Shown one piece after another: positions 7,588-42,619 of a stretch of 43,342 nt of DNA. Position 1 is the first letter of the stretch. Each line of letters begins with the position of its first letter. The translations under genes and the position numbers were made by a program. The notes under the pieces are model-generated. The model saw nothing but the letters and a program-made list of their open reading frames with translations. It made no database searches and was not told where the DNA came from. Source of the DNA: Desulfovulcanus ferrireducens (lineage in GTDB: Bacteria; Desulfobacterota; Desulfovibrionia; Desulfovibrionales; Desulfonatronovibrionaceae); NCBI RefSeq assembly GCF_018704065.1, contig NZ_JAGUQP010000025.1, forward strand, positions 1 to 43,342, in the 5' to 3' direction.

Positions 7588-10251
7588 CTATTTCAGTCCA
7601 GCAAGCCGCTCTCTTAATTTTTCTAGCTTTACTTTTTTTTCCTCAAATTCATTCAGTTTACGCTTTTCTTTGTCCACCACATGAGCTGGGGCCTTGTTCA
7701 CAAATCCCTCGTTGGACAGTTTGCGGCTGACAAATTCCAGCTCCTTGTTGATTTTCTTTAGTTCCTTATCAAGCCTTGCAAGTTCACTTTCTATATCCAC
7801 CAGGTCTTTGACCGGCACATAGAGCTCATGCCCCTTAACCACATTAGAAGCTGCACCAGGCGGCGGAGTCAAATCAGGTTCGGCCTGCATCGATTCCAAG
7901 CGGGCCAAATGCATAATTAAACTTTTTTGGCCAAGCAAAAAGTCTCTGTCCTCTCCTTCGACGCGTACATAAAGTTTAAGTTTCTGCGAAGGTCCAATAC
8001 CAAGCTCCGAACGAATGTTTCGCACACTAACTACAACTTGTTGTAAAAACTCCATCCTCTCTACCACATCTGGCTGCAAACATTCCGGCCGACTCTCTGG
8101 AAATGGCTCCCGGGCCAAATTTGGATTTTCCTGTCCAGGGATATAGCTCCATACTTCCTGAGTAACAAAAGGAATAATGGGATGTAAAAGAACCAAAATT
8201 TCACTTAAAACCTGTTTCAAACAGCCCCTGGCCAGGGATTTGACTTCTTCGTCCTGACCATAGAGCTCTGGCTTGATCATCTCCAGGTACCAGTCACAAA
8301 ACTCATGCCAGACAAATTGATATAGTACCCCGGCTGCATCGTTAAACCGGTAAGCTTCTAAAGCCTTGCGCACCTCCTCTTTCACTTCTTCAAGGCGATG
8401 CAAGATCCATTGGTGAGTCAAGCCACCGCTTTCACTAATTTTGGCCGGCTCAAACTCAATTTTTTCTTCCTCTGTTAAGTGCATCAGCGCAAATCTGGCT
8501 GCGTTCCAGATCTTATTGATAAAATGGCGGTAGCCCTCAATGCGCTCTTCGCTCATCTTGATGTCCCGGCCCATGGCAGCAAAGGCAGTCAGTGTAAATC
8601 TGAAGGCATCAGTGCCAAATTTATCCATCATGAGCAGCGGATCAATAACATTGCCCTTGGATTTACTCATTTTCTGGCCCTGGGCGTCGCGAACCAGAGC
8701 ATGAATATAGACATGCCGAAACGGGACATCCTTCATAAAATGCAGGCCCATCATCATCATTCGAGCCACCCAGAAAAATAAGATATCAAATCCTGTGACC
8801 AGGACGGAGGTGGGATAAAACTTTTTAAGCTCCTCGGTCTGATCTGGCCAACCCAGGGTGGAAAATGGCCACAAGGCAGAGGAAAACCAGGTATCCAGCA
8901 CATCTTCATCCTGACTTAATTTGTCACTCTTGCATTCCGGGCAAGCTGTTGGATCTTCTCTGGCCACAATCAAATGCCCGCAGTCTTCGCAGGTCCAGGC
9001 CGGAATCCGGTGTCCCCACCAGATCTGCCGGGAGATACACCAATCTCTAATATTATCCAACCATTCAAAATAAGTCTTGGTCCAGTGATCTGGAAAAATT
9101 TTGGTTCGGCTATCTACTACAGCCTGTCTGGCTTCCTTGGCCAGCGGACCAATTTTTACAAACCATTGCCTGGAAACATACGGTTCAATAACTGCTCTAC
9201 AACGATAACAATGGCCCACACTATGTTGCAGATCTTCTTTTTTGACCAGAAAGCCCTGTTCCTCAAGCATCTGAACGACTTTTTTCCGGCACTCAAACCT
9301 GTCCAGACCAGCAAACTCAGGACCGGCCTGCTCATTCATCCTGCCTTCATCGTCAATAACCTGAATAACATCCAGATTATGCTTCTTGCCCAGTTCAAAG
9401 TCGTTCATGTCATGGGCAGGGGTAATCTTCAGGCAACCTGTGCCAAACTCTCTGTCCACATAACTATCAGCAATAATAGGGATTTTCCTCTGAACCAAAG
9501 GCAAGATAACTTCCTTACCAATTAAGTGACTATATCTTTCATCTTCGGGATGCACAGCCACACCAGTGTCGCCGAGCATGGTCTCCGGCCTGGTGGTAGC
9601 CACGATTACTTCTCCCTGGCCATCAGCCAAAGGATACTTAATATGGTAAAGTGCACCCAAAGCCTCTTCATGTTCAACTTCCAGATCTGCCAAAGCAGTA
9701 TGACATCTGGGACACCAATTGATAATATAATCGCCCTGGTAAATTAAACCCTCTTCATAAAGACGGACAAAGACTTCGCGCACGGCCCTGGATAATCCTT
9801 CATCCATGGTAAAGCGCAGCCTTGACCAGTCCACAGAGGCACCAATACGCCGAATCTGATTTAAAATCTTATTTCCATACTCCTCTTTCCACTCCCACAC
9901 ACGTTCAATAAACTTTTCCCGTCCTAAGGACTGTCTGGTCTTACCCTCGGCGGCCAGGGCCCTTTCCACCACGTTCTGCGTGGCGATTCCAGCATGGTCG
10001 GTGCCTGGCACCCAAAGTACATCATAACCAAGCTGGCGGTGAAAACGGCACAATATATCCTGCAAAGTCAGGTTCAGGGCATGGCCCATGTGCAGGGTCC
10101 CGGTTACATTTGGCGGAGGAATAACTATGGCATAAGGCTTTTTAACCTTGTCAACATCCGGACTAAAACTCTTATTCTCTTCCCAAAACTCAAGCCACTT
10201 TTCTTCCACACCTTTTGGATCGTATCCTTTAGGCAATTCTTGTGCACCCAT
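7588..10251 (-). CDS. valS: Valyl-tRNA synthetase
   Basis: About 887 residues, the normal length for ValRS. Class I signatures are present: PPPNVTGTLHMGHALN with HMGH at residues 54-57 and KMSKSKGNVIDP near residue 527. The editing (CP1) domain lies between them and a C-terminal coiled coil (roughly 820-887, ELARLDKELKKINKELEFV) is intact. The zinc-type cysteine pairs CEDCG and CPECK are visible in the middle. The ATG at 10249-10251 (MGAQELPKG) is preferred because GGAG lies 7 bases upstream; an in-frame ATG four codons earlier has none. It heads a unit with cobA-hemD and purN. Confidence 0.97.
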   Translation of the reverse strand: MGAQELPKGYDPKGVEEKWLEFWEENKSFSPDVDKVKKPYAIVIPPPNVTGTLHMGHALNLTLQDILCRFHRQLGYDVLWVPGTDHAGIATQNVVERALAAEGKTRQSLGREKFIERVWEWKEEYGNKILNQIRRIGASVDWSRLRFTMDEGLSRAVREVFVRLYEEGLIYQGDYIINWCPRCHTALADLEVEHEEALGALYHIKYPLADGQGEVIVATTRPETMLGDTGVAVHPEDERYSHLIGKEVILPLVQRKIPIIADSYVDREFGTGCLKITPAHDMNDFELGKKHNLDVIQVIDDEGRMNEQAGPEFAGLDRFECRKKVVQMLEEQGFLVKKEDLQHSVGHCYRCRAVIEPYVSRQWFVKIGPLAKEARQAVVDSRTKIFPDHWTKTYFEWLDNIRDWCISRQIWWGHRIPAWTCEDCGHLIVAREDPTACPECKSDKLSQDEDVLDTWFSSALWPFSTLGWPDQTEELKKFYPTSVLVTGFDILFFWVARMMMMGLHFMKDVPFRHVYIHALVRDAQGQKMSKSKGNVIDPLLMMDKFGTDAFRFTLTAFAAMGRDIKMSEERIEGYRHFINKIWNAARFALMHLTEEEKIEFEPAKISESGGLTHQWILHRLEEVKEEVRKALEAYRFNDAAGVLYQFVWHEFCDWYLEMIKPELYGQDEEVKSLARGCLKQVLSEILVLLHPIIPFVTQEVWSYIPGQENPNLAREPFPESRPECLQPDVVERMEFLQQVVVSVRNIRSELGIGPSQKLKLYVRVEGEDRDFLLGQKSLIMHLARLESMQAEPDLTPPPGAASNVVKGHELYVPVKDLVDIESELARLDKELKKINKELEFVSRKLSNEGFVNKAPAHVVDKEKRKLNEFEEKKVKLEKLRERLAGLK

Positions 10252-20285: not shown

Positions 20286-20600
20286 GAGCCTGTGGCCAAA
20301 CCCTATTTTAACCGCTGAATGAAAGTCTTGGTTTCTGAAATGCATTACAAACGGCTTGGGTAACCCAATCTTAATGAAGCTTGCGGAAAAACAGAGCATC
20401 GGGATGAATGGGGCTAAATACTTTGCGATGTTCACCATCACTATCGATAATAAAAGAATAGTTGTTTACACAAAATATCCCATTATGCTCTGTCCGCAAG
20501 CAAGTTTTAGATGGGTCCAAGTCTTTGTACCAGCATGAAAGAAACCAAGACTAGAATAAAACATGGAAATTAAGTTGATAAAAAGTTTGGCTACAAGCTC
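20286..20600 (+). mobile_element. MITE-like element, copy A (short form), TSD TAAA
   Basis: 315 bp. Ends GAGCCTGTGGCCAAACCC and AGTTTGGCTACAAGCTC are imperfect inverted repeats, with TAAA duplicated at 20282-20285 and 20601-20604. The two halves share further inverted blocks (AGTCTTGGTTTCT, TACAAA, CTTGCGGA, CAGAGCAT, GGGAT), so the whole element can fold into one long hairpin. It lies between mutS2 and dnaG within the macromolecular synthesis operon. No open frame inside is credible. Confidence 0.9.
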
Positions 20601-34528: not shown

Positions 34529-34981
34529 ATGGAATATCTTTTTGTATATGGAACCTTGCGGCAAAAGGTAGCGCATCCTCTGCATACTTTTCTGCTTAAT
34601 AATGCAGATTTTATTGGTCTTGGCTATGTGCAGGCCAAGCTATATGCGGTTAAACACTATCCTGGAGCGGTATTAACTGAAGACCCAGCAAGTAGAGTCC
34701 TTGGGGAAGTGTACTTCTTGCGAAGGCCAGAAAAAGTTTTAAACAAGCTTGATGCTTACGAGGGGTGTACCAAAGATTACCCTCAACCACATGAATATAA
34801 AAGAAAAAAAGTTAGCGTTAAACTTGAGAACGGCCCAAATATTACGGCATGGATGTATGAGTACAACCTCCCTACAAAAAACCTGAAACTAATCCCCTCC
34901 GGAGATTATCTCGATTTTATTAACTTAAAAACTCAATGGCTCAAGAGCCTATGGCCAAACCCTATTTTAACCGCTGAATGA
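34529..34981 (+). CDS. Gamma-glutamylcyclotransferase-like protein with a 3' end rewritten by a MITE
   Basis: About 150 residues. MEYLFVYGTLRQ contains the YGTLR motif of the GGCT/AIG2 fold; VLGEVYFLRRPEKVLNKLDAYEG holds the presumed acid/base Glu (DAYEG). The family includes gamma-glutamylcyclotransferases and gamma-glutamylamine cyclotransferases, with the exact substrate unknown here. The start at 34529 fits the family; an earlier in-frame ATG at 34478 would add 17 unmatched residues. The last 12 codons (SLWPNPILTAE and stop) are encoded by MITE copy F, whose target duplication TCAA lies at codon WLK. Removing the element and one TCAA restores a frame ending ...QWLNFPSCLTP then TAA at 35286-35288. 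Confidence 0.8.
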   Translation: MEYLFVYGTLRQKVAHPLHTFLLNNADFIGLGYVQAKLYAVKHYPGAVLTEDPASRVLGEVYFLRRPEKVLNKLDAYEGCTKDYPQPHEYKRKKVSVKLENGPNITAWMYEYNLPTKNLKLIPSGDYLDFINLKTQWLKSLWPNPILTAE

Positions 34982-35260
34982 AAGTCCTGGTTTCTGAAAT
35001 GCATTACAAACGGCTTGGGTAACTCAATCTTAATGAAGCTTGCGGAAAAACAGAGCATCGGGATGAATGGGCTAAATACTTTGCGATGTTGACCATAACC
35101 ATCGGTAATAAAAGAATATTTGCTTACCCAAAGTATCCCATTATGCTCTATCCGCAAGCAAGTTTTAGATGGGTCCTAGTCTTTGTACCAGCATGAAAGA
35201 AACCAAGACTGAAATAAAACCAGGACAATTAAGTTGATAAAAAGGTTAGAGCCCAGGCTC
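34945..35260 (+). mobile_element. MITE-like element, copy F (short form), TSD TCAA
   Basis: 316 bp. Starts GAGCCTATGGCCAAACCC, ends GGTTAGAGCCCAGGCTC, with TCAA at 34941-34944 and 35261-35264. Very close to copy A along its length (for example GGCTTGGGTAACTCAATCTT, ATGAAGCTTGCGGAAAAACA). It is inserted in the coding 3' end of the gene at 34529. Confidence 0.9.
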
Positions 35261-35264
35261 TCAA

Positions 35265-35560
35265 CTTCCCTAGCTGTCTAACACCATAACTTCTACGCTT
35301 TTGGAAAGCACTTTTTCTAAAATGCATTACAATTGAAAAAATGTGCTCTCCATTTAACCCGGAAAGTTGAGTCAATGATATCAGTTATTGGTACGGGACT
35401 TATTATTGAATCCTGGATCTATCTCAAAGTACAAAGGAAAGGGCAAACAGGCAGGGGAAAGAATCTATCTTTAACAAACTTTAACAAAATCGCGATGCAG
35501 AAAAACGCCCTTTGGTTCAGACAACTAGTCCTCCCCTCAGGCTGCTCTATTTGAATAAAA
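35265..35560. other. Non-coding stretch after MITE F
   Basis: No credible gene. It holds the ancestral 3' end of the cyclotransferase-like gene (to 35288), a scrap of MITE sequence (TTCTAAAATGCATTACAA, 35313-35330) and, at 35506-35513, AAAAGGGC-type sequence complementary to the hydB stop region (35561-35569), followed on the minus strand by a short T run. That could form a long-looped hydB terminator. Confidence 0.4.
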
Positions 35561-35905
35561 TTAAAGGGCCAACTCAATACCCTTCTCTTTCAAGGCCTTA
35601 ACCCTGGCGCTACGATCATAGTAATTGGTATGCAAAAGGCGGTGAGACATATGTCCGCATGGTCCTTCATGCAAAAAGCCATGCTTTTTATCGTAGAGCT
35701 TTTTAACCATGGGATTATCCTGTGACTTTCTGATCTTATAGATTTTGGCATCAGCTTCATAAACAGATTTCTGACGCAAGGCCACGAACTCCATGGCTGC
35801 GGCTACGGCCTCTTTGGTCATGTTAAACCCCAAGACCATATAGCCGGTAGCAATGCCTGCAGCCTTAAGAAAACTGCGTCTGGTCATCTTTATCATTTTT
35901 TTCAT
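35561..35905 (-). CDS. hydB: Periplasmic [FeFe] hydrogenase small subunit
   Basis: 114 residues. The N-terminus has a Tat signal: TRRSFLKAAGIATGYMVLG, with cleavage expected after the AVAAA region. The mature part (MEFVALRQKSVYEADAKIYK, GPCGHMSHRLLHTNYYDRS) matches the small subunit that wraps the H-cluster domain of Desulfovibrio-type HydA. The large subunit has no signal of its own and is carried across by this subunit. SD GGAGGG is 7 bases before ATG. It follows hydA by 15 bp. Confidence 0.95.
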   Translation of the reverse strand: MKKMIKMTRRSFLKAAGIATGYMVLGFNMTKEAVAAAMEFVALRQKSVYEADAKIYKIRKSQDNPMVKKLYDKKHGFLHEGPCGHMSHRLLHTNYYDRSARVKALKEKGIELAL

Positions 35906-35920
35906 GGTTTACCCTCCTTC

Positions 35921-37261
35921 CTAACAACAAACTTTTCGCATTCTGTATCTCTTATTTATCTTCGCAATCATGCACTTAAACAGTGAAGCTTCTTCGCGAA
36001 TATCCGGATCCAAAGGCTGTCCTCCACCGTTTACGCAACCGCCAGGGCAGGTCATAATCTCAATAAAGTGATAGGGAGACTTGCCAGCCCGAACTTCTTC
36101 GCAGAGTTTGGCGGCATTCTGAAGTCCACTGGCAACAGCCACTTTGACTGTTCCGAAATTCGGAACCTTAATGTCAGCGGTGTTAATGCCCTCATGGGTA
36201 CGCACAATTTTTATGTCAGGGTTAGCAAGTTTTTGACCGGATAAAACCTCGTAAGCCAAGCGAAGAGCTGCTTCCATAACTCCGCCACTGGTGCCGAAGA
36301 TTGTCGCAGCACCCGTGGACATACCTAGTGCAGGGTCAGGTTCCTGGTCGGGCAAACTTTTAAAGTCAATTCCTGCCTTTTTGATCATGTAGGCCAGTTC
36401 CCTGGTATTTATAGTGGCATCAATATCTTTAAAGCCACTATCGGCCATCTCTGGTCGGAGCCCCTCGTACTTCTTGGCGATACATGGCATGATAGATACG
36501 GTGTAAATCTTCTGGCCAGGGATATGCGTCTCGTGGGCGCCATATGTTTTGGCCAGAGCGCCAAGCATCCCTATGGGGGATTTACATGTGGAAAGATGGG
36601 GCAAGAGATCAGGATAAAAAGTCTCACAAAACTTGACCCACCCCGGACAACATGACGTAAACTGTGGTAATGGCTTGTCCTTGCTTGGATGCTTAACCCG
36701 CTCGATAAGCTCTGTACCTTCCTCCATGATGGTTACGTCTGCGGTCCATTCGTTGTCCCAGATGTAATCAAAACCAAGTTTCCTCAGGGCAGCATGCATC
36801 TTGCCCCCTACATACGTGCCTGTCGGATAGCCAAAACACTCTCCAAGGCCATAGCGAACAGCCGGGGCAGGCATAGACACAACTATCGTGTCCGGATCTT
36901 TCAACTTTTCAAAAATCTCGTCCACATAAGAAACGCCTTCATAGATAGCGCCGTAAGGACAATTGAGCAAACATTGCCCGCAATTCATGCACGCTGCCGG
37001 ACTGACTACCTGGTGAATGCCATCATCATTAATGGCCTGAATAGCGCCGGTGGGGCAATGCTCCTCACACACTCCACACCCCTGACACTTGGTGAGATCC
37101 ACCTGGACAAAATAAATATTGTCCGGGTCCTCACTTCTCGGGGCATTGGTCAGATACATCACATCTTCCATTTTTTTCATGGTCCCCTCCTCCTCTGGTA
37201 TTATCGCCGATAAATCTACCGGCGTAAGTTTAGGTGCCGTTTTGGCTCTGCATCCGGACAT
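35921..37261 (-). CDS. hydA: Periplasmic [FeFe] hydrogenase large subunit
   Basis: 446 residues. Two 4Fe-4S ferredoxin motifs (C59, C62, C65, C69 and C91, C94, C97, C101) feed the H-cluster domain. Its motifs are FTSCCPGW (C204 proton relay, C205 ligand), IMPCIAKKYE (C260) and MTCPGGCVNGGG (C405, C409). The enzyme oxidises H2 in the periplasm. It is about 25 residues longer at the N-terminus than D. vulgaris HydA. Two starts are possible: 37261 (MSGCRAK, GGAGGG upstream) and 37180 (MKKMEDV, GGAGGGG upstream). The C-terminus ends RMRKVCC; in D. desulfuricans the large subunit is C-terminally processed. It transcribes away from the HycI-like gene. Confidence 0.96.
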   Translation of the reverse strand: MSGCRAKTAPKLTPVDLSAIIPEEEGTMKKMEDVMYLTNAPRSEDPDNIYFVQVDLTKCQGCGVCEEHCPTGAIQAINDDGIHQVVSPAACMNCGQCLLNCPYGAIYEGVSYVDEIFEKLKDPDTIVVSMPAPAVRYGLGECFGYPTGTYVGGKMHAALRKLGFDYIWDNEWTADVTIMEEGTELIERVKHPSKDKPLPQFTSCCPGWVKFCETFYPDLLPHLSTCKSPIGMLGALAKTYGAHETHIPGQKIYTVSIMPCIAKKYEGLRPEMADSGFKDIDATINTRELAYMIKKAGIDFKSLPDQEPDPALGMSTGAATIFGTSGGVMEAALRLAYEVLSGQKLANPDIKIVRTHEGINTADIKVPNFGTVKVAVASGLQNAAKLCEEVRAGKSPYHFIEIMTCPGGCVNGGGQPLDPDIREEASLFKCMIAKINKRYRMRKVCC

Positions 37262-37621: not shown

Positions 37622-38161
37622 ATGTGCGAAATATCTATAATCGGTCTCGGCAACATTTTAGACGGAGATATGGGGGTTGGATGCTATATTCTGGAAGCCC
37701 TCGCACAGGATAACTTGGGCGACAACATCCGCCTCGCCTACCTGGCTGAAGAGGCAATAAAAGCGGACGTCTGGTTCTACAAAGCAAGTTTGGCCATTAT
37801 TGTCCAGGGGCTCTGCCTGGGGGCAAATCCGGGGCGCATCCTTTGCTGGAACTATAAGACCTTCCGGCAAAACCTCACCTGGTTAACAGAGCAATCAAAA
37901 ACGATCAGACCCCTGACTCAAGCCCTGGCCAGGACTGAACTGGCTAATGGATTCCCTGAAAAGCTTCTTTTTATCTTCATCCAGCCCAAGGAGACAGGCA
38001 GACCCTCTATCTCTAAAGAAATGTGCAAGGCCATGCGCAGAGCAATAAAAATAATAAAAAGGCAGCTACAGGAAAACGGTTTTCTATCAACAACAACTAG
38101 CAGTAAGCTTGAGCCGATTTATCGGCTCAAGCTGCTGCAAGGGAGCATGTTAATGTTCTAG
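37622..38161 (+). CDS. HycI/HupD-like hydrogenase maturation protease homologue with altered metal site
   Basis: 179 residues. IIGLGNILDGDMGVGCYILE matches the start of [NiFe]-hydrogenase endopeptidases (G.GN.L..D.G.G), and ASLAIIVQGLCLGANPGRIL matches the second conserved strand. However the residue after the first Asp (normally Glu/Asp, a nickel ligand) is Met, the Asp of the 'VDA' strand is replaced by Gln (VQG), and no clear third His is seen. It may therefore not be an ordinary nickel-dependent peptidase. Its neighbours are an [FeFe] hydrogenase, which is not a known substrate of this family. No good Shine-Dalgarno precedes the ATG. The 3' end contains a perfect 13-bp palindrome that encodes the last residues. 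Confidence 0.7.
   Translation: MCEISIIGLGNILDGDMGVGCYILEALAQDNLGDNIRLAYLAEEAIKADVWFYKASLAIIVQGLCLGANPGRILCWNYKTFRQNLTWLTEQSKTIRPLTQALARTELANGFPEKLLFIFIQPKETGRPSISKEMCKAMRRAIKIIKRQLQENGFLSTTTSSKLEPIYRLKLLQGSMLMF
38106..38133 (+). repeat. Perfect 13-bp palindrome in the 3' end of the HycI-like gene
   Basis: AGCTTGAGCCGAT, TT, ATCGGCTCAAGCT. No T run follows. It is inside the reading frame and ends 25 bases before the stop codon. Confidence 0.6.
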
Positions 38162-38182
38162 GGTTATCGAAAAGTAAACCTT

Positions 38183-38284
38183 TGCCTGCGGGAAGGGTGC
38201 AAGCCTGAACCCAAGGGTTAGTGTGAATAAATCTCGCTTTCTACCCGGCCTGCAGGCATTTGCTTTGGTCGGGTTTTATTTTTT
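38183..38284 (+). promoter_or_regulatory. Candidate transcription attenuator ahead of the TM1266-family gene
   Basis: A terminator stem ACCCGGCC / GGTCGGGT (38243-38250 with 38267-38274) followed by TTTTATTTTTT ends directly at the Shine-Dalgarno GGAGGG of the next gene. In its loop GCAGGCA (38252-38258) is complementary to TGCCTGC at 38183-38189. The upstream sequence GCGGGAAGGGTGCAAGCCTG is somewhat like the cobalamin-aptamer core, but the B12 box and the CCGCNACTGT block are absent. Pairing of the two distant segments would break the terminator. Confidence 0.5.
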
Positions 38285-38295
38285 GGAGGGTTAAA

Positions 38296-38544
38296 ATGAA
38301 CAAAAGAATGGGCGTAATAGCCATCATCGTCAAGGACAGGAAATCTTCCAGTTCTAAAGTCAACGAGATTTTAACTGAATACGGCGAAATGATTATTGGG
38401 CGTATGGGAGTGCCTTATCGCGAGAAAAAGGTAAATGTAATTTCCTTAATCGTTGAAGCCAATACAGATCAAATAGGTGCCCTCACCGGCAAACTAGGCA
38501 TGATTCCTCAGGTAGAAGTCAAATCCATTTTAATAACAAAGTAA
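38296..38544 (+). CDS. TM1266-family iron-only hydrogenase system regulator-like protein
   Basis: 82 residues. GVIAIIVKDRKSSSSKVNEI, YGEMIIGRMGVPYREKKVNV, ISLIVEANTDQIGALTGKLG match the small ACT-like proteins (TM1266 family) often found in [FeFe]-hydrogenase gene clusters. The family is annotated as a putative regulator and its ligand is unknown. The start is ATG 38296 with GGAGGG directly upstream; an in-frame ATG 12 codons earlier lies in the terminator stem and is rejected. It is separated from hydG by MITE copy G. Confidence 0.88.
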   Translation: MNKRMGVIAIIVKDRKSSSSKVNEILTEYGEMIIGRMGVPYREKKVNVISLIVEANTDQIGALTGKLGMIPQVEVKSILITK

Positions 38545-38615: not shown

Positions 38616-38931
38616 GATTCTGTGACCAACGCCTATTTAAACCGCTGATTGAAAGTCTTGGTTTCTGAAATGCATTACAAACGGCTTGGGTAACCCAATC
38701 TTAATGAAGCTTGCGGGAAAACAGAGCATCGGGATGAATGGGCTAAACACTTTGCGATGTTAACCATGGTTATCGATAATAAAAAGAGTGTCTGCTTATT
38801 TACAATATCCCATTATGCTCTATCCGCAAGCAAGTTTTAGATGGGTCCAAGTCTTTGTGCCAGCATGAAAGAAACTAAGACTGGAATAAACCATGGAAAT
38901 TAATCTGATAAACAGGTTCGACCACAGGCAC
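38616..38931 (+). mobile_element. MITE-like element, copy G (short form)
   Basis: 316 bp. Left end GATTCTGTGACCAACGCC, right end GGTTCGACCACAGGCAC, flanked by TTAA (38612-38615) and ATAA (38932-38935), a decayed 4-bp duplication. Internal blocks agree closely with copies A and F. It lies between the TM1266-family gene and hydG and must be crossed by any transcript joining them. Confidence 0.85.
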
Positions 38932-38984: not shown

Positions 38985-40478
38985 ATGCTGAGCGCAAAAG
39001 AAAAGGAATGGCGAGAAGAACGGTTGGCCAGAATCAAGAAATGGGAAGAAGATTGTCCCTGGGAGGATTTCATCGATGATGATAACATATCGAAAATCAT
39101 TGAAGAGAAAAAAAATCCGGATAAAAAAGAAATCCTGGAAATAGTTTCCAAGGCAAAAGAAAATGCCCTAACCGGGGCCATGCTTTCTCCCGAAGAAGTA
39201 GGTGCTCTCACCAACGTGCAAGATCCAGAGCTATGGGAGGCTATTTTCGAAGCTGCCAACTGGATCAAGTGCAAAGTCTATGGCAACAGGATTGTGCTTT
39301 TTTCGCCCCTTTATATTTCCAGCCCTTGTGTAAATAATTGCGCCTATTGCGGATTCAGGCACAGCAACAAGGAAGTTCACACAAAAACATTAACCATGGA
39401 AGAGTTGGAAGAGGAAATAAAAGTCCTCACCGGCATGGGCCAGAAACGGCTTATTGTCGTTTACGGAGAACACCCTGCAAGTGACTACAAATTCATGTGT
39501 AAAACCATAGAAAAAATATACAGTATAAAAAATGGAAAAGGAGAGATTAGACGGGTCAATGTCAATGCTCCACCTTTGTTTGTCGATGAATACGAGGCAG
39601 TAAAGGCTGTGGGCATTGGCACGTATCAAGTCTTTCAGGAAACGTATCATCATCCGACTTATCATAAAATGCATCCTGCCAACACTCTCAAGGGCCAGTA
39701 TAAGTGGCGACAATTCGCCCTGCACCGGGCCCTGCAGGCAGGCATTGATGATGTGGCTATCGGGGCTTTGTTCGGGCTCTATGACTGGCGTTTTGAGTTA
39801 TTGGGGCTACTTTATCATGCCATGTCTCTGGAAAAAGAATTCGGCGTAGGCTCTCATACCATTTCTTACCCACGCCTGGAACACGCAGTAAACACTCCTA
39901 TCACCTCAAACTCTCCCTATCTTGTGGATGATGAAGACTTTAAAAAAATAGTCGCTATTATCCGCCTGATGTGCCCATATACAGGGTCAATTTTAACCGC
40001 GAGAGAAGCTCCTGCCCTGCGAAGGGACCTTATACAAAAAGGCGGAATTTCCCAGATGGATGCCGGTACCAGAATTGCCGTTGGTGGATATGCTGAGATG
40101 AAAAAAGAGCATATTCCTGACAAGCAGCAATTTCTTATTCAGGACACTCGTAGCCTGGACGACTTCATCTATGATTTGTGCAAAGATGGATATTTACCTT
40201 CTTTTTGTACTGCCTGTTACCGTGAAGGCCGCACAGGTGACAATTTTATGCCATTGGCCAAGCATGCAACTGTTAAAAACTTTTGTATTGGCAATGGCAT
40301 CCTTACTTTTAAAGAATACCTCCTGGATTATGCCTCGCCCAGAGTAAAAGAAATCGGGGAAAAAGTGATTATCCCCAACTACTTAAAATGGCTGGATGAA
40401 CACGTGCCCCAGGCAGCGAAGCAGGTCAAAGAGCTACTGCAAAAAGAAGAGGCCGGGGAAAGAGATCAGCATTTGTAG
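38985..40478 (+). CDS. hydG: [FeFe] hydrogenase H-cluster radical SAM maturase HydG
   Basis: 497 residues. The radical-SAM motif CVNNCAYC (C115, C119, C122) opens the barrel, and the C-terminal cluster motif CTACYREG...NFC is exactly CX2CX22C, which distinguishes HydG from ThiH and HydE. It cleaves tyrosine to p-cresol and forms the CO and CN- ligands as an organometallic iron synthon for the H-cluster. SD AAGGAGG is 9 bases before ATG. The unknown small gene and aspA follow on the same strand. hydE and hydF are not within the window. Confidence 0.97.
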   Translation: MLSAKEKEWREERLARIKKWEEDCPWEDFIDDDNISKIIEEKKNPDKKEILEIVSKAKENALTGAMLSPEEVGALTNVQDPELWEAIFEAANWIKCKVYGNRIVLFSPLYISSPCVNNCAYCGFRHSNKEVHTKTLTMEELEEEIKVLTGMGQKRLIVVYGEHPASDYKFMCKTIEKIYSIKNGKGEIRRVNVNAPPLFVDEYEAVKAVGIGTYQVFQETYHHPTYHKMHPANTLKGQYKWRQFALHRALQAGIDDVAIGALFGLYDWRFELLGLLYHAMSLEKEFGVGSHTISYPRLEHAVNTPITSNSPYLVDDEDFKKIVAIIRLMCPYTGSILTAREAPALRRDLIQKGGISQMDAGTRIAVGGYAEMKKEHIPDKQQFLIQDTRSLDDFIYDLCKDGYLPSFCTACYREGRTGDNFMPLAKHATVKNFCIGNGILTFKEYLLDYASPRVKEIGEKVIIPNYLKWLDEHVPQAAKQVKELLQKEEAGERDQHL

Positions 40479-40636: not shown

Positions 40637-40912
40637 ATGCAGGATATGAACGAAATCAAAAAACTATTAGAGGAAAAGGCCAAAGAGGTGTGTGCGCGGT
40701 TTGGTCTGAGCAGGGTATATTTTGCTCAAGTGCTGGGCAGGCGCAACCACTTTCTGGCTGGCCATGGAGAAGAGATGTTCGTGCGACCTGAAAAGAGAAC
40801 TTTGACCGAAAAAATCACTGTTTTCTGGGAAGGTGATATCTCGGAAGAAAAAAGGCGGGCTTTGCTGGACGAGCTAATTCCCTTTGCAAAAAAAGTTTCA
40901 AAGGTGCTTTAA
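40637..40912 (+). CDS. Small protein of unknown function between hydG and aspA
   Basis: About 91 residues from ATG 40637 (an ATG three codons later is also possible). Not recognised. It looks like a compact alpha/beta protein: a helix (MNEIKKLLEEKAKEVCARFG), a strand segment (LSRVYFAQVLGRRNHFLAGHGEEMFV), another (TLTEKITVFWEG) and a C-terminal helix (EEKRRALLDELIPFAKKVSK). There are no cysteine pairs or transmembrane segments. Its stop codon adjoins the ATG of aspA, so translation is probably coupled. The position inside a hydrogenase-maturation group hints at a linked role, but nothing in the sequence proves it. Confidence 0.7.
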   Translation: MQDMNEIKKLLEEKAKEVCARFGLSRVYFAQVLGRRNHFLAGHGEEMFVRPEKRTLTEKITVFWEGDISEEKRRALLDELIPFAKKVSKVL

Positions 40913-42301
40913 ATGATACGCATTGAACACGATCTCTTAGGCGAAAAAAAGATACCCCGAGATGCTTATTTTGGGATTCATTCTCTTCGGGCAAAAGAAA
41001 ACTTTCCCTTATCCGGCCTAAATGTTCACCCGGAACTGATCCGGGCCATGGGCCTGGTTAAACAGGCCTGTGCCAGGGCCAATCTGGAACTGGGCTACCT
41101 GAAACCAGAAACAGGCGAGGCTATAATTTCTGCCTGCGAGGATGTCTGCTCTGGAAAACTGAATGAGGAGATCGTGGTCGATGCCCTGCAGGGCGGCGCA
41201 GGAACTTCTACCAATATGAACATCAATGAAGTTATTGCCAACCGGGCAATTGAAATCCTGGAAGGTGAAAAAGGCGACTATAAACTCGTTCACCCCATTA
41301 ACCAGGTCAATTTACATCAATCAACCAACGATGTTTATCCCACTGCAATTAAAATAGCTGCCATTAGCCTTCTGCGAGACCTGGAAAAAAAGATTGCCAA
41401 GTTACAGGCCGCCTTACAAGACAAAGAAAACGAATTTCGTGATGTTATCAAGATTGGGCGCACTGAACTGCAGGATGCTGTTCCCATGACCCTGGGGGCA
41501 GAGTTTTCCGCGTTTTCCGAGGCCATTGCCAGGGATAGATGGAGAGTATTTAAATGCGAAGAAAGACTGCGGGTAGTGAATATAGGAGGGACAGCTATTG
41601 GTACCGGCCTTACAGCGCCAAGAAAATACATATTTCTGGTAATTGAAAAGTTGCGTGAACAAACAGGCTTTGGCCTTGCACGTGCTGAAAACATGGTTGA
41701 CGCCACCCAGAATATGGATGCCTTTGTAGAAGTCTCTGGCATTTTAAAAGCCCATGCTGTCAACTTGTTTAAAATTAGCTCTGACCTGCGGTTAATGTCT
41801 TCTGGCCCTTTAGCAGGCTTGCGGGAGATAAAACAGCCAGAGGTCCAGGCCGGTTCTTCCATCATGCCAGGCAAAGTCAATCCGGTTATTTGCGAAGCAG
41901 TGGGCCAGGTAGCCATCAAGGTCATGGCCAATGATTTTATTGTGACTCAAGTATGTCAGAATGGACAATTTGAATTAAATCCATTTCTGCCACTTCTAGC
42001 CCATGCCCTCCTTGAGTCTTTAAGCCTGCTGATTCAGGCCAATAAAATTTTCCGGGAAAAGTGTATTCAGGGAATTTCTGCCAACAAAGAAATTTGCGCC
42101 CACTATGCTCATCACAGCCCAGGCCTAATAACCGCGCTTTTACCCTACATCGGCTACGAGCAGGCAACATCAGTAGCCAAAGAAGCACAAAAAACGGGCA
42201 AGAGCGTGCTAGAAATAGTCCGGGAAAAAAATCTTATCCCCAAAGATCAATTGGAATATATTCTCTCCCCGGAAGCAATGACAGCTCTAGGTTACAGATA
42301 A
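40913..42301 (+). CDS. aspA: Aspartate ammonia-lyase family enzyme
   Basis: 462 residues, full length. It belongs to the fumarase/aspartase superfamily: GGAGTSTNMNINEVIANRA, HQSTNDVYPTAIKIA, and the signature loop GSSIMPGKVNP that carries the catalytic Ser. Fumarase class II and aspartase share these motifs; the N-terminus (RIEHDLLGEKKIPRDAYFGI) and length favour aspartase, which releases ammonia and fumarate from aspartate. In clostridia and Thermotogales a related gene lies with hydE-hydG-hydF, and the present position after hydG repeats that pattern. No intergenic gap to the preceding gene. The stop codon overlaps the target duplication of MITE copy H. Confidence 0.88.
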   Translation: MIRIEHDLLGEKKIPRDAYFGIHSLRAKENFPLSGLNVHPELIRAMGLVKQACARANLELGYLKPETGEAIISACEDVCSGKLNEEIVVDALQGGAGTSTNMNINEVIANRAIEILEGEKGDYKLVHPINQVNLHQSTNDVYPTAIKIAAISLLRDLEKKIAKLQAALQDKENEFRDVIKIGRTELQDAVPMTLGAEFSAFSEAIARDRWRVFKCEERLRVVNIGGTAIGTGLTAPRKYIFLVIEKLREQTGFGLARAENMVDATQNMDAFVEVSGILKAHAVNLFKISSDLRLMSSGPLAGLREIKQPEVQAGSSIMPGKVNPVICEAVGQVAIKVMANDFIVTQVCQNGQFELNPFLPLLAHALLESLSLLIQANKIFREKCIQGISANKEICAHYAHHSPGLITALLPYIGYEQATSVAKEAQKTGKSVLEIVREKNLIPKDQLEYILSPEAMTALGYR

Positions 42302-42303
42302 TA

Positions 42304-42619
42304 GAGTCTGTGGCCAAACCCCATCCTGACCACCAGATTGAAAATCCTGGTTTCTTGAAAGCATTGCAAAGGGCTGGGTAAGCTATCTTGGCGAAGCTTG
42401 CGGATAAGCAGAGCATCGGGGCGACAAAGCTAAATATCTTGGGACTATTTGTCATAGCTAGCGACAATAAAAAGAATATTCGCTTACCCTAAATGCCCCA
42501 TTATGCTCTGCCCGTAAGCAAGCCTTAGATGGGTCCAGGCATTTGCACCAGCATGAAAGAAATCAGGATTGAAAAAAATATGAAAAATTGTCCTCTGAGT
42601 AAGGTTTGGCCACAGACTC
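42304..42619 (+). mobile_element. MITE-like element, copy H, TSD AATA
   Basis: 316 bp. Ends GAGTCTGTGGCCAAACCCC and GGTTTGGCCACAGACTC are the best preserved inverted termini of the window (17 bp, exact). AATA is duplicated at 42300-42303 and 42620-42623; the left copy includes the last two bases of the aspA stop codon. Internal sequence groups with copy D. Confidence 0.92.

Follow-up and report, generated by a model that had tools for sequence, protein, structure and literature searches.

Our results indicate that the 43,342-nucleotide stretch of Desulfovulcanus ferrireducens DNA analysed here (the window) encodes, beside a two-subunit [FeFe] hydrogenase, a dead relative of the HybD/HycI proteases that would serve the split-subunit, Tat-exported HydAB enzyme, and we consider it slightly better than an even bet that it does so as a binding partner during assembly. 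The protein, for which we use the name PROT, is the product of an intact open reading frame with an ATG start, which begins 360 nt from the divergently oriented hydA gene and ends 134 nt 5' of a TM1266-family gene. The features of the locus are as follows.

35501-35546, - strand: second copy of an RNA element, ~15 nt past the hydB stop
35561-35905, - strand: hydB, small subunit with twin-arginine signal (Fe_hyd_SSU, 68 bits; TIGR01409 TAT signal, 21.3 bits, cut-off 16.7)
35921-37261, - strand: hydA, group A [FeFe] hydrogenase catalytic subunit (TIGR02512, 480 bits, cut-off 405.95; N-terminus MSGCRAKTAP)
37622-38161, + strand: PROT, predicted HybD/HycI-fold pseudo-protease (179 aa; M17, Q62 and T94 at the ligand positions)
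38180-38224, + strand: RNA element, TM1266 leader, 18 nt past the PROT stop and not part of the protein
38296-38544, + strand: TM1266-family putative regulator of the [FeFe] hydrogenase system (TIGR03959, 116.9 bits, cut-off 60.8)
38985-40478, + strand: hydG, H-cluster radical SAM maturase (TIGR03955, 446.6 bits, cut-off 312.15)
40637-40912, + strand: ORF91, a 91-aa open reading frame 3' of hydG without family match
40913-42301, + strand: aspA-like aspartate ammonia-lyase gene of the hyd operon (NF008909, 677 bits, cut-off 510)

A previous sequence-only reading of this DNA had stated that the window holds no [NiFe] hydrogenase gene; this was borne out, as the large-subunit motifs RxCGxC and DPCxxCxxH are absent from all its open frames of at least 60 aa. 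Two further features of the locus were recorded. ORF91 also follows hydG in genomes G004 and G010, with a weak counterpart (33% identity) in G824; and a dispersed repeat of ~266 bp occurs at 20305-20570, 34964-35218 and 38635-38900, with a weaker copy within ~42385-42585, and has 40 near-full matches (84-100% identity, query included) in the 2.6-Mb genome.

Its fold assigns PROT to the HycI/HybD superfamily; of two family profiles, one narrowly agrees and the other does not. It scored 48.1 bits against TIGR00072, the hydrogenase maturation protease superfamily, just above the curated cut-off of 47.45, and 16.6 bits against the Pfam HycI family (PF01750), under the cut-off of 23; it also fell far below the cut-offs of the more specific protease models among those listed. 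A sequence search of the Protein Data Bank linked PROT to E. coli HybD only over the initial 30-odd residues of the latter (E 0.85). Profile-profile comparison (hhalign) of 12 PROT relatives with 18 protease-type sequences gave a probability of 99.5% and an E-value of 2.4e-23; the alignment of relatives took in one frame of the disrupted copy from G719, and the protease set included L157, a locus with no [NiFe] large subunit seen nearby. Some members carry long N-terminal extensions, which were removed before the alignments, the ligand table and the tree were made. Further, an AlphaFold model of PROT obtained from a two-row alignment was of middling confidence (mean pLDDT 69.6, pTM 0.74), with its last 21 residues under pLDDT 50, and in a Foldseek search with this model ranks 1-10 were all HybD/HycI structures, with TM values of 0.68/0.74 for 1cfz and 0.71/0.78 for 2kml. 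PROT thus has the HybD/HycI fold, and the observation of a protease homologue is sound given the open reading frame, the TIGR00072 score, the structure matches and the profile-profile comparison.

The residues that bind metal in this fold are lost. We take E/D16, D62 and H93 of E. coli HybD to be the metal ligands; in an alignment guided by one of the host's own intact proteases (L042), which aligns with HybD over nearly its full length, positions E16, D62 and H93 of HybD correspond to M17, Q62 and T94 of PROT, and the Asp adjoining the first ligand (HybD D15, PROT D16) is retained. The earlier reading had described a HycI-like homologue with lost ligands beside an [FeFe] hydrogenase, naming a Met and a Gln; these are M17 and Q62, and the third ligand is lost as well. 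None of the three is kept in any of the 15 intact members of the PROT group, in agreement with the earlier suggestion of a repurposed or non-catalytic protein; the ligand table and the tree cover 15 of the 17 members, without the disrupted ones from G614 and G719. Among 23 comparators, E/D16 and D62 are kept throughout and an aligned His93 in 20, the other three having His one column away (two) or Arg (one). These comparators include L157 and L037, neither with a [NiFe] large subunit seen nearby. The L037 protein (8182-8691, - strand) is HycI-like, keeps Asp16 and Asp62, has Arg in the His93 column and sits on a very long branch; no [NiFe] large-subunit motif was found in the fetched stretch of that locus. 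Across 12 aligned rows of the PROT group no Asp, His, Cys or Ser is conserved that could form an alternative active site, P112 alone being invariant and G10, G71, R139 and L149 nearly so. With all three ligands lost and no other such residue conserved, hydrolysis by the known mechanism is very unlikely, and PROT, lacking the ligands, would not be a functional member of the protease group.

Phylogenetic analysis placed all 15 members on one side of a branch of length 1.25 with support 100/99, apart from the 23 comparators. The tree program flagged a long comparator adjoining the PROT group; without the three longest comparators, the split was recovered with support 100/100. The members likely form one clade, a conclusion kept short of proof by the unusual amino-acid make-up of several of them and by a root that is not known.

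Within the order, a profile of six members was searched against 348 genomes, yielding nine matches of at least 87 bits followed by a gap to 60 bits. All nine PROT genes adjoin hydAB or TM1266-hydG-aspA genes, lying before TM1266 in the window, G004, G046, G056, G069 and G211, and before hydA in G094, G324 and G282, whereas the seven next-best matches (60.4-54.4 bits) are all found in loci with [NiFe] large subunits. Over the order and the rest of the phylum searched, 12 of 17 members are linked in this manner, and no [NiFe] large subunit was found near PROT in the other 11 linked loci (motif scan in 5, BLAST in 6); the motif scan of L035 gave two short antisense-like frames only, taken as chance matches. 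The association with periplasmic hydAB that had been proposed is therefore upheld in one direction, but the converse does not follow: taking HydB-profile hits at E <= 6.3e-23 as standalone hydB, 139 genomes of the order hold 145 copies (179 genomes had any HydB-profile match, and four of the five weaker rows among the matches listed lie in open frames of >460 residues), and PROT is present in 9 of these 139 genomes and missing from 130. A nine-member profile was run against 20 fetched hydAB loci considered to lack PROT and, with an E-value limit as loose as 10, matched none of them; four of the 20 are truncated by contig ends, and one is an additional hydAB copy in a member genome. Genome G010 has the divergent layout of the window without PROT, the gap between hydA and TM1266 being 579 nt there and 1,034 nt in the window. 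These counts show that PROT is dispensable for HydAB in general, and we rejected the idea of an exclusive one-to-one partner, since most hydAB genomes of the order lack it. In a scan of a genome collection, the single PROT protein found no relative; the alignment found one PROT copy, in a Desulfovibrionaceae MAG.

Outside the order, sampling comprised 395 genomes across the phylum, 241 from one other class and 41 of a third class; the query alignment for the 241 and the 41 included one frame of the G719 copy, and the 41 held none beyond the member already known. Eight more members were obtained, and since the genomes searched were samples, the true number is probably higher. Three of the eight are linked to hydAB. 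In G824 the genes run hydA-hydB-TM1266-hydG-ORF91-hydE-hydF-PROT on one strand (hydE and hydF were identified by their position and starts and by a weak HydG-like match). PROT is also on the hydB strand in G905 and G923, where ~4.5 and ~2.2 kb containing other ORFs separate it from the upstream hydB. Homologues without a hydAB link, which the sequence-only reading had named as evidence against the association, thus do exist (5 of 17). Two have disrupted reading frames (G614 and G719), in genomes that gave no standalone HydB; as both assemblies are drafts, sequencing error is possible. G703, which belongs to the same genus as G824, retains the final third of hydF (residues 287-428, 84% identical) ~200 nt upstream of PROT, but a search of its genome found no [FeFe] hydrogenase domain, so that the hyd operon seems to have been deleted around the gene. 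The flanks of PROT in G936, where no standalone HydB was found, share segments in rearranged order with the hydAB-carrying locus of its congener G905. The fifth genome, G587, has PROT apart from a divergent periplasmic-type HydB that carries a twin-arginine motif (by eye) near a HydA C-terminal frame. These cases look like the outcome, for the most part, of loss of hydAB, and where hydAB is gone PROT is often broken or stranded. PROT is nevertheless intact in G703 and G936, on branches not longer than those of their sisters, which leaves room for another or an additional target. A link to FmdE and the Wood-Ljungdahl pathway, suggested by neighbours in G703, G719 and G587, was dropped, as these are isolated loci only and the one in G703 goes with the hyd operon deletion. 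Weaker HycI-type matches outside the order were examined in part: the G366, G565, G461 and G742 matches each have a [NiFe] large subunit encoded in their locus, and the G408 match (L157) has none in the fetched stretch, yet keeps the ligands.

How such a protein might act is suggested by its relatives. HybD-type proteins bind the [NiFe] large subunit and cut its C-terminus before export. Profile searches found a Tat signal in HydB and none in HydA, so that HydA is presumably matured and joined to HydB before export. Most simply, a dead HybD-like protein would keep the binding and timing role and drop the cut: PROT would bind the cytoplasmic HydA precursor, or the HydA/HydB interface, during assembly; it would hold HydA open and ready for insertion, or keep it from Tat export, until HydF delivers the 2Fe subcluster and HydB docks; and it would then leave without cutting. 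We infer the binding to HydA or HydB, its timing and the chaperone or checkpoint role. According to the accessible text of PMC12933642, wild-type heterodimeric DdHydAB matures unusually slowly in vitro, which is attributed there to an inter-subunit gap at a "lock" element. Loaded HydF does not remedy it, and its authors allow that periplasmic enzymes may depend on specific conditions in vivo. An accessory protein at the HydA/HydB interface would fit this slow maturation, only in the lineages that carry PROT. It is conceivable, though on balance we doubt it, that two-subunit, Tat-exported [FeFe] hydrogenases took over a dead [NiFe]-protease fold as an assembly checkpoint of their own; PROT would then keep the HydA/HydB "lock" open for H-cluster insertion or hold HydA from export, supplying in carrier lineages a missing in vivo factor, and the same maturation protein fold would be used by two hydrogenase classes that are unrelated. 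Proteins of the HycI/HybD type are known as [NiFe]-specific proteases, and a ligand-less group tied to [FeFe] operons would represent an enzyme fold that switched hydrogenase class and lost catalysis. PROT is a testable candidate accessory factor for heterodimeric HydAB, slow to mature in vitro, and automatic annotation of this group as "hydrogenase maturation protease" would be misleading. The literature on [FeFe] operons and maturation proteases, searched mostly outside subscription journals, yielded nothing on PROT.

The N-terminus of HydA in the window (~37200-37261, - strand) resembles the starts MSGCRAKQAP and MSGCRAKKAP of two [NiFe] large subunits that this genome also encodes (L135, L136). 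In D. vulgaris, the [NiFeSe] large subunit is a lipoprotein without the usual signal peptide; from this precedent and the MSGC-type start, the [FeFe] hydrogenase of the window may likewise be lipid-anchored. As a correlate of PROT the MSGC start was dropped, being found in 1 of 9 HydA proteins with PROT and 2 of 18 without.

An alternative that we regard as unlikely is that PROT is a regulatory partner, sensing unassembled HydA or subunit stoichiometry and acting with TM1266 on hyd expression instead of on assembly. Its position directly before TM1266 in 6 of the 12 linked loci would suit this role, as would the annotation of TM1266 as a putative regulator, but the arrangement breaks down elsewhere: in G094 and G324, where PROT precedes hydA, no TM1266 match was obtained in the fetched 18 kb, in G282 it lies on the strand opposite TM1266, and in G824 it follows hydF. 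Furthermore, Pfam beyond HycI returned a sub-threshold match only, to a family of unknown function, and thus no DNA- or RNA-binding domain.

Quite improbable, in our estimation, is that PROT is a drifting, near-functionless paralogue carried along with the operon, a view to which its fast evolution (25-32% identity between the window protein and the family f5 members compared), its rarity among the hydAB genomes of the order and the broken copies in G614 and G719 lend some weight. The rates of substitution speak otherwise: three pairs from a single genus gave dN/dS (Nei-Gojobori) of 0.28, 0.34 and 0.45, and the pairs G703-G824 and G936-G905 gave 0.38 and 0.17, the last value being rough because dS is 1.9. 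Between the window host and G004, for which synonymous sites are saturated, PROT is 56% identical, close to the 60% of a [NiFe]-linked protease, with HydA and HydG at 86%. Intact copies are present in 15 genomes of six families, and PROT accompanies hydAB in differing gene orders. PROT is therefore a maintained, fast-evolving gene under purifying selection.

The sequence-only reading had also proposed a part for PROT in the C-terminal processing of HydA. The large subunit HydA of Desulfovibrio is reported to be C-terminally processed, and together with the fold and the neighbourhood this could be read as the work of an active protease with a rebuilt active site; we consider it highly improbable, given the loss of the three ligands in every intact member with no conserved replacement, the 130 hydB genomes of the order that do without PROT, and the HydA tails, which by eye are alike in 9 loci with PROT and 18 without. 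A search of the literature on HydA tail processing, again mostly outside subscription journals, found nothing on point. As for a true maturation protease of a [NiFe] hydrogenase encoded elsewhere, superfamily membership and the presence of at least two [NiFe] large subunits in the genome would allow it, but we rejected it as having almost no chance of being right, since PROT has none of the ligands and the host's two other HycI homologues, on other contigs, adjoin those large subunits with their ligands complete.

An RNA element near hydB and TM1266 is a lead separate from the PROT finding. It spans 43 nt and consists of the core CCTGCGGSRAGG, a short spacer, CTGAMCC and AGGG; after the window copy, a hairpin-like stretch and a T run extend up to ~38278 (by eye). 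A covariance model from 14 copies (E <= 0.01) gave 107 hits in 72 of the 348 genomes, and copies may have been missed owing to the stricter filters used in the search. Of these hits, 96 follow a standalone hydB by up to 700 nt in the same orientation (57 at 0-48 nt and 39 at 129-421 nt past the end of the profile match), and half of the hydB genes (72/145) carry the element; five lie ~2-2.7 kb off on the other strand, corresponding to the TM1266 leader in the window and G010; and six fall outside this placement rule, one overlapping the end of a hydB match. Among 58 distinct copies, 95.5% of cells pair, and covariation score, paired cells and double-change cells exceed those of all 500 shuffles, while the number of pairs with double changes was reached by 3 and that of further pair types by 50; these values come from an alignment fitted to the model, in which large parts of the stem are nearly invariant. 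The covariation supports nested helices. A strong reading is tempered by the window leader: folded singly, its sequence does not stand out from shuffles (z -1.24; 25 of 200 do as well), and its best fold does not show the consensus stem. No Rfam family matched the element, either in 10 kb of the window (E <= 1) or in four loci with copies (E <= 5), and our literature search on the element found nothing. Where TM1266 does not follow, the copy lies in the apparent hydB 3' UTR, which would be odd for a riboswitch; a protein-binding site is equally likely, and the element may be a riboswitch or a binding site of TM1266.

Among known systems, the [NiFe] accessory chaperones of the HyaE/HybE/HupG/HupH type are non-catalytic helpers of Tat-exported hydrogenases, and resemble PROT only by proposed function, their folds being unrelated and the enzyme class another. 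HydE, HydF, HydG and aspartate ammonia-lyase are encoded in the same operons as PROT, but are enzymes acting on the cofactor. AspA is proposed in PMC11736057 as an accessory of H-cluster synthesis with a role in DTMA ligand synthesis; in the accessible text of that paper no HybD-like protein turned up, and both mentions of "protease" refer to inhibitor tablets. With the HybD/HyaD and HycI endopeptidases (1cfz, 2kml, 5ija, 2e85) PROT shares the fold, the length, the GxGNxLxxD start motif, the PG motif and a position beside a hydrogenase operon. It differs from them in lacking the three metal ligands, in accompanying [FeFe] instead of [NiFe] genes, in falling into a separate group of the tree and in having a partly conserved C-terminal tail past the last helix of the fold.
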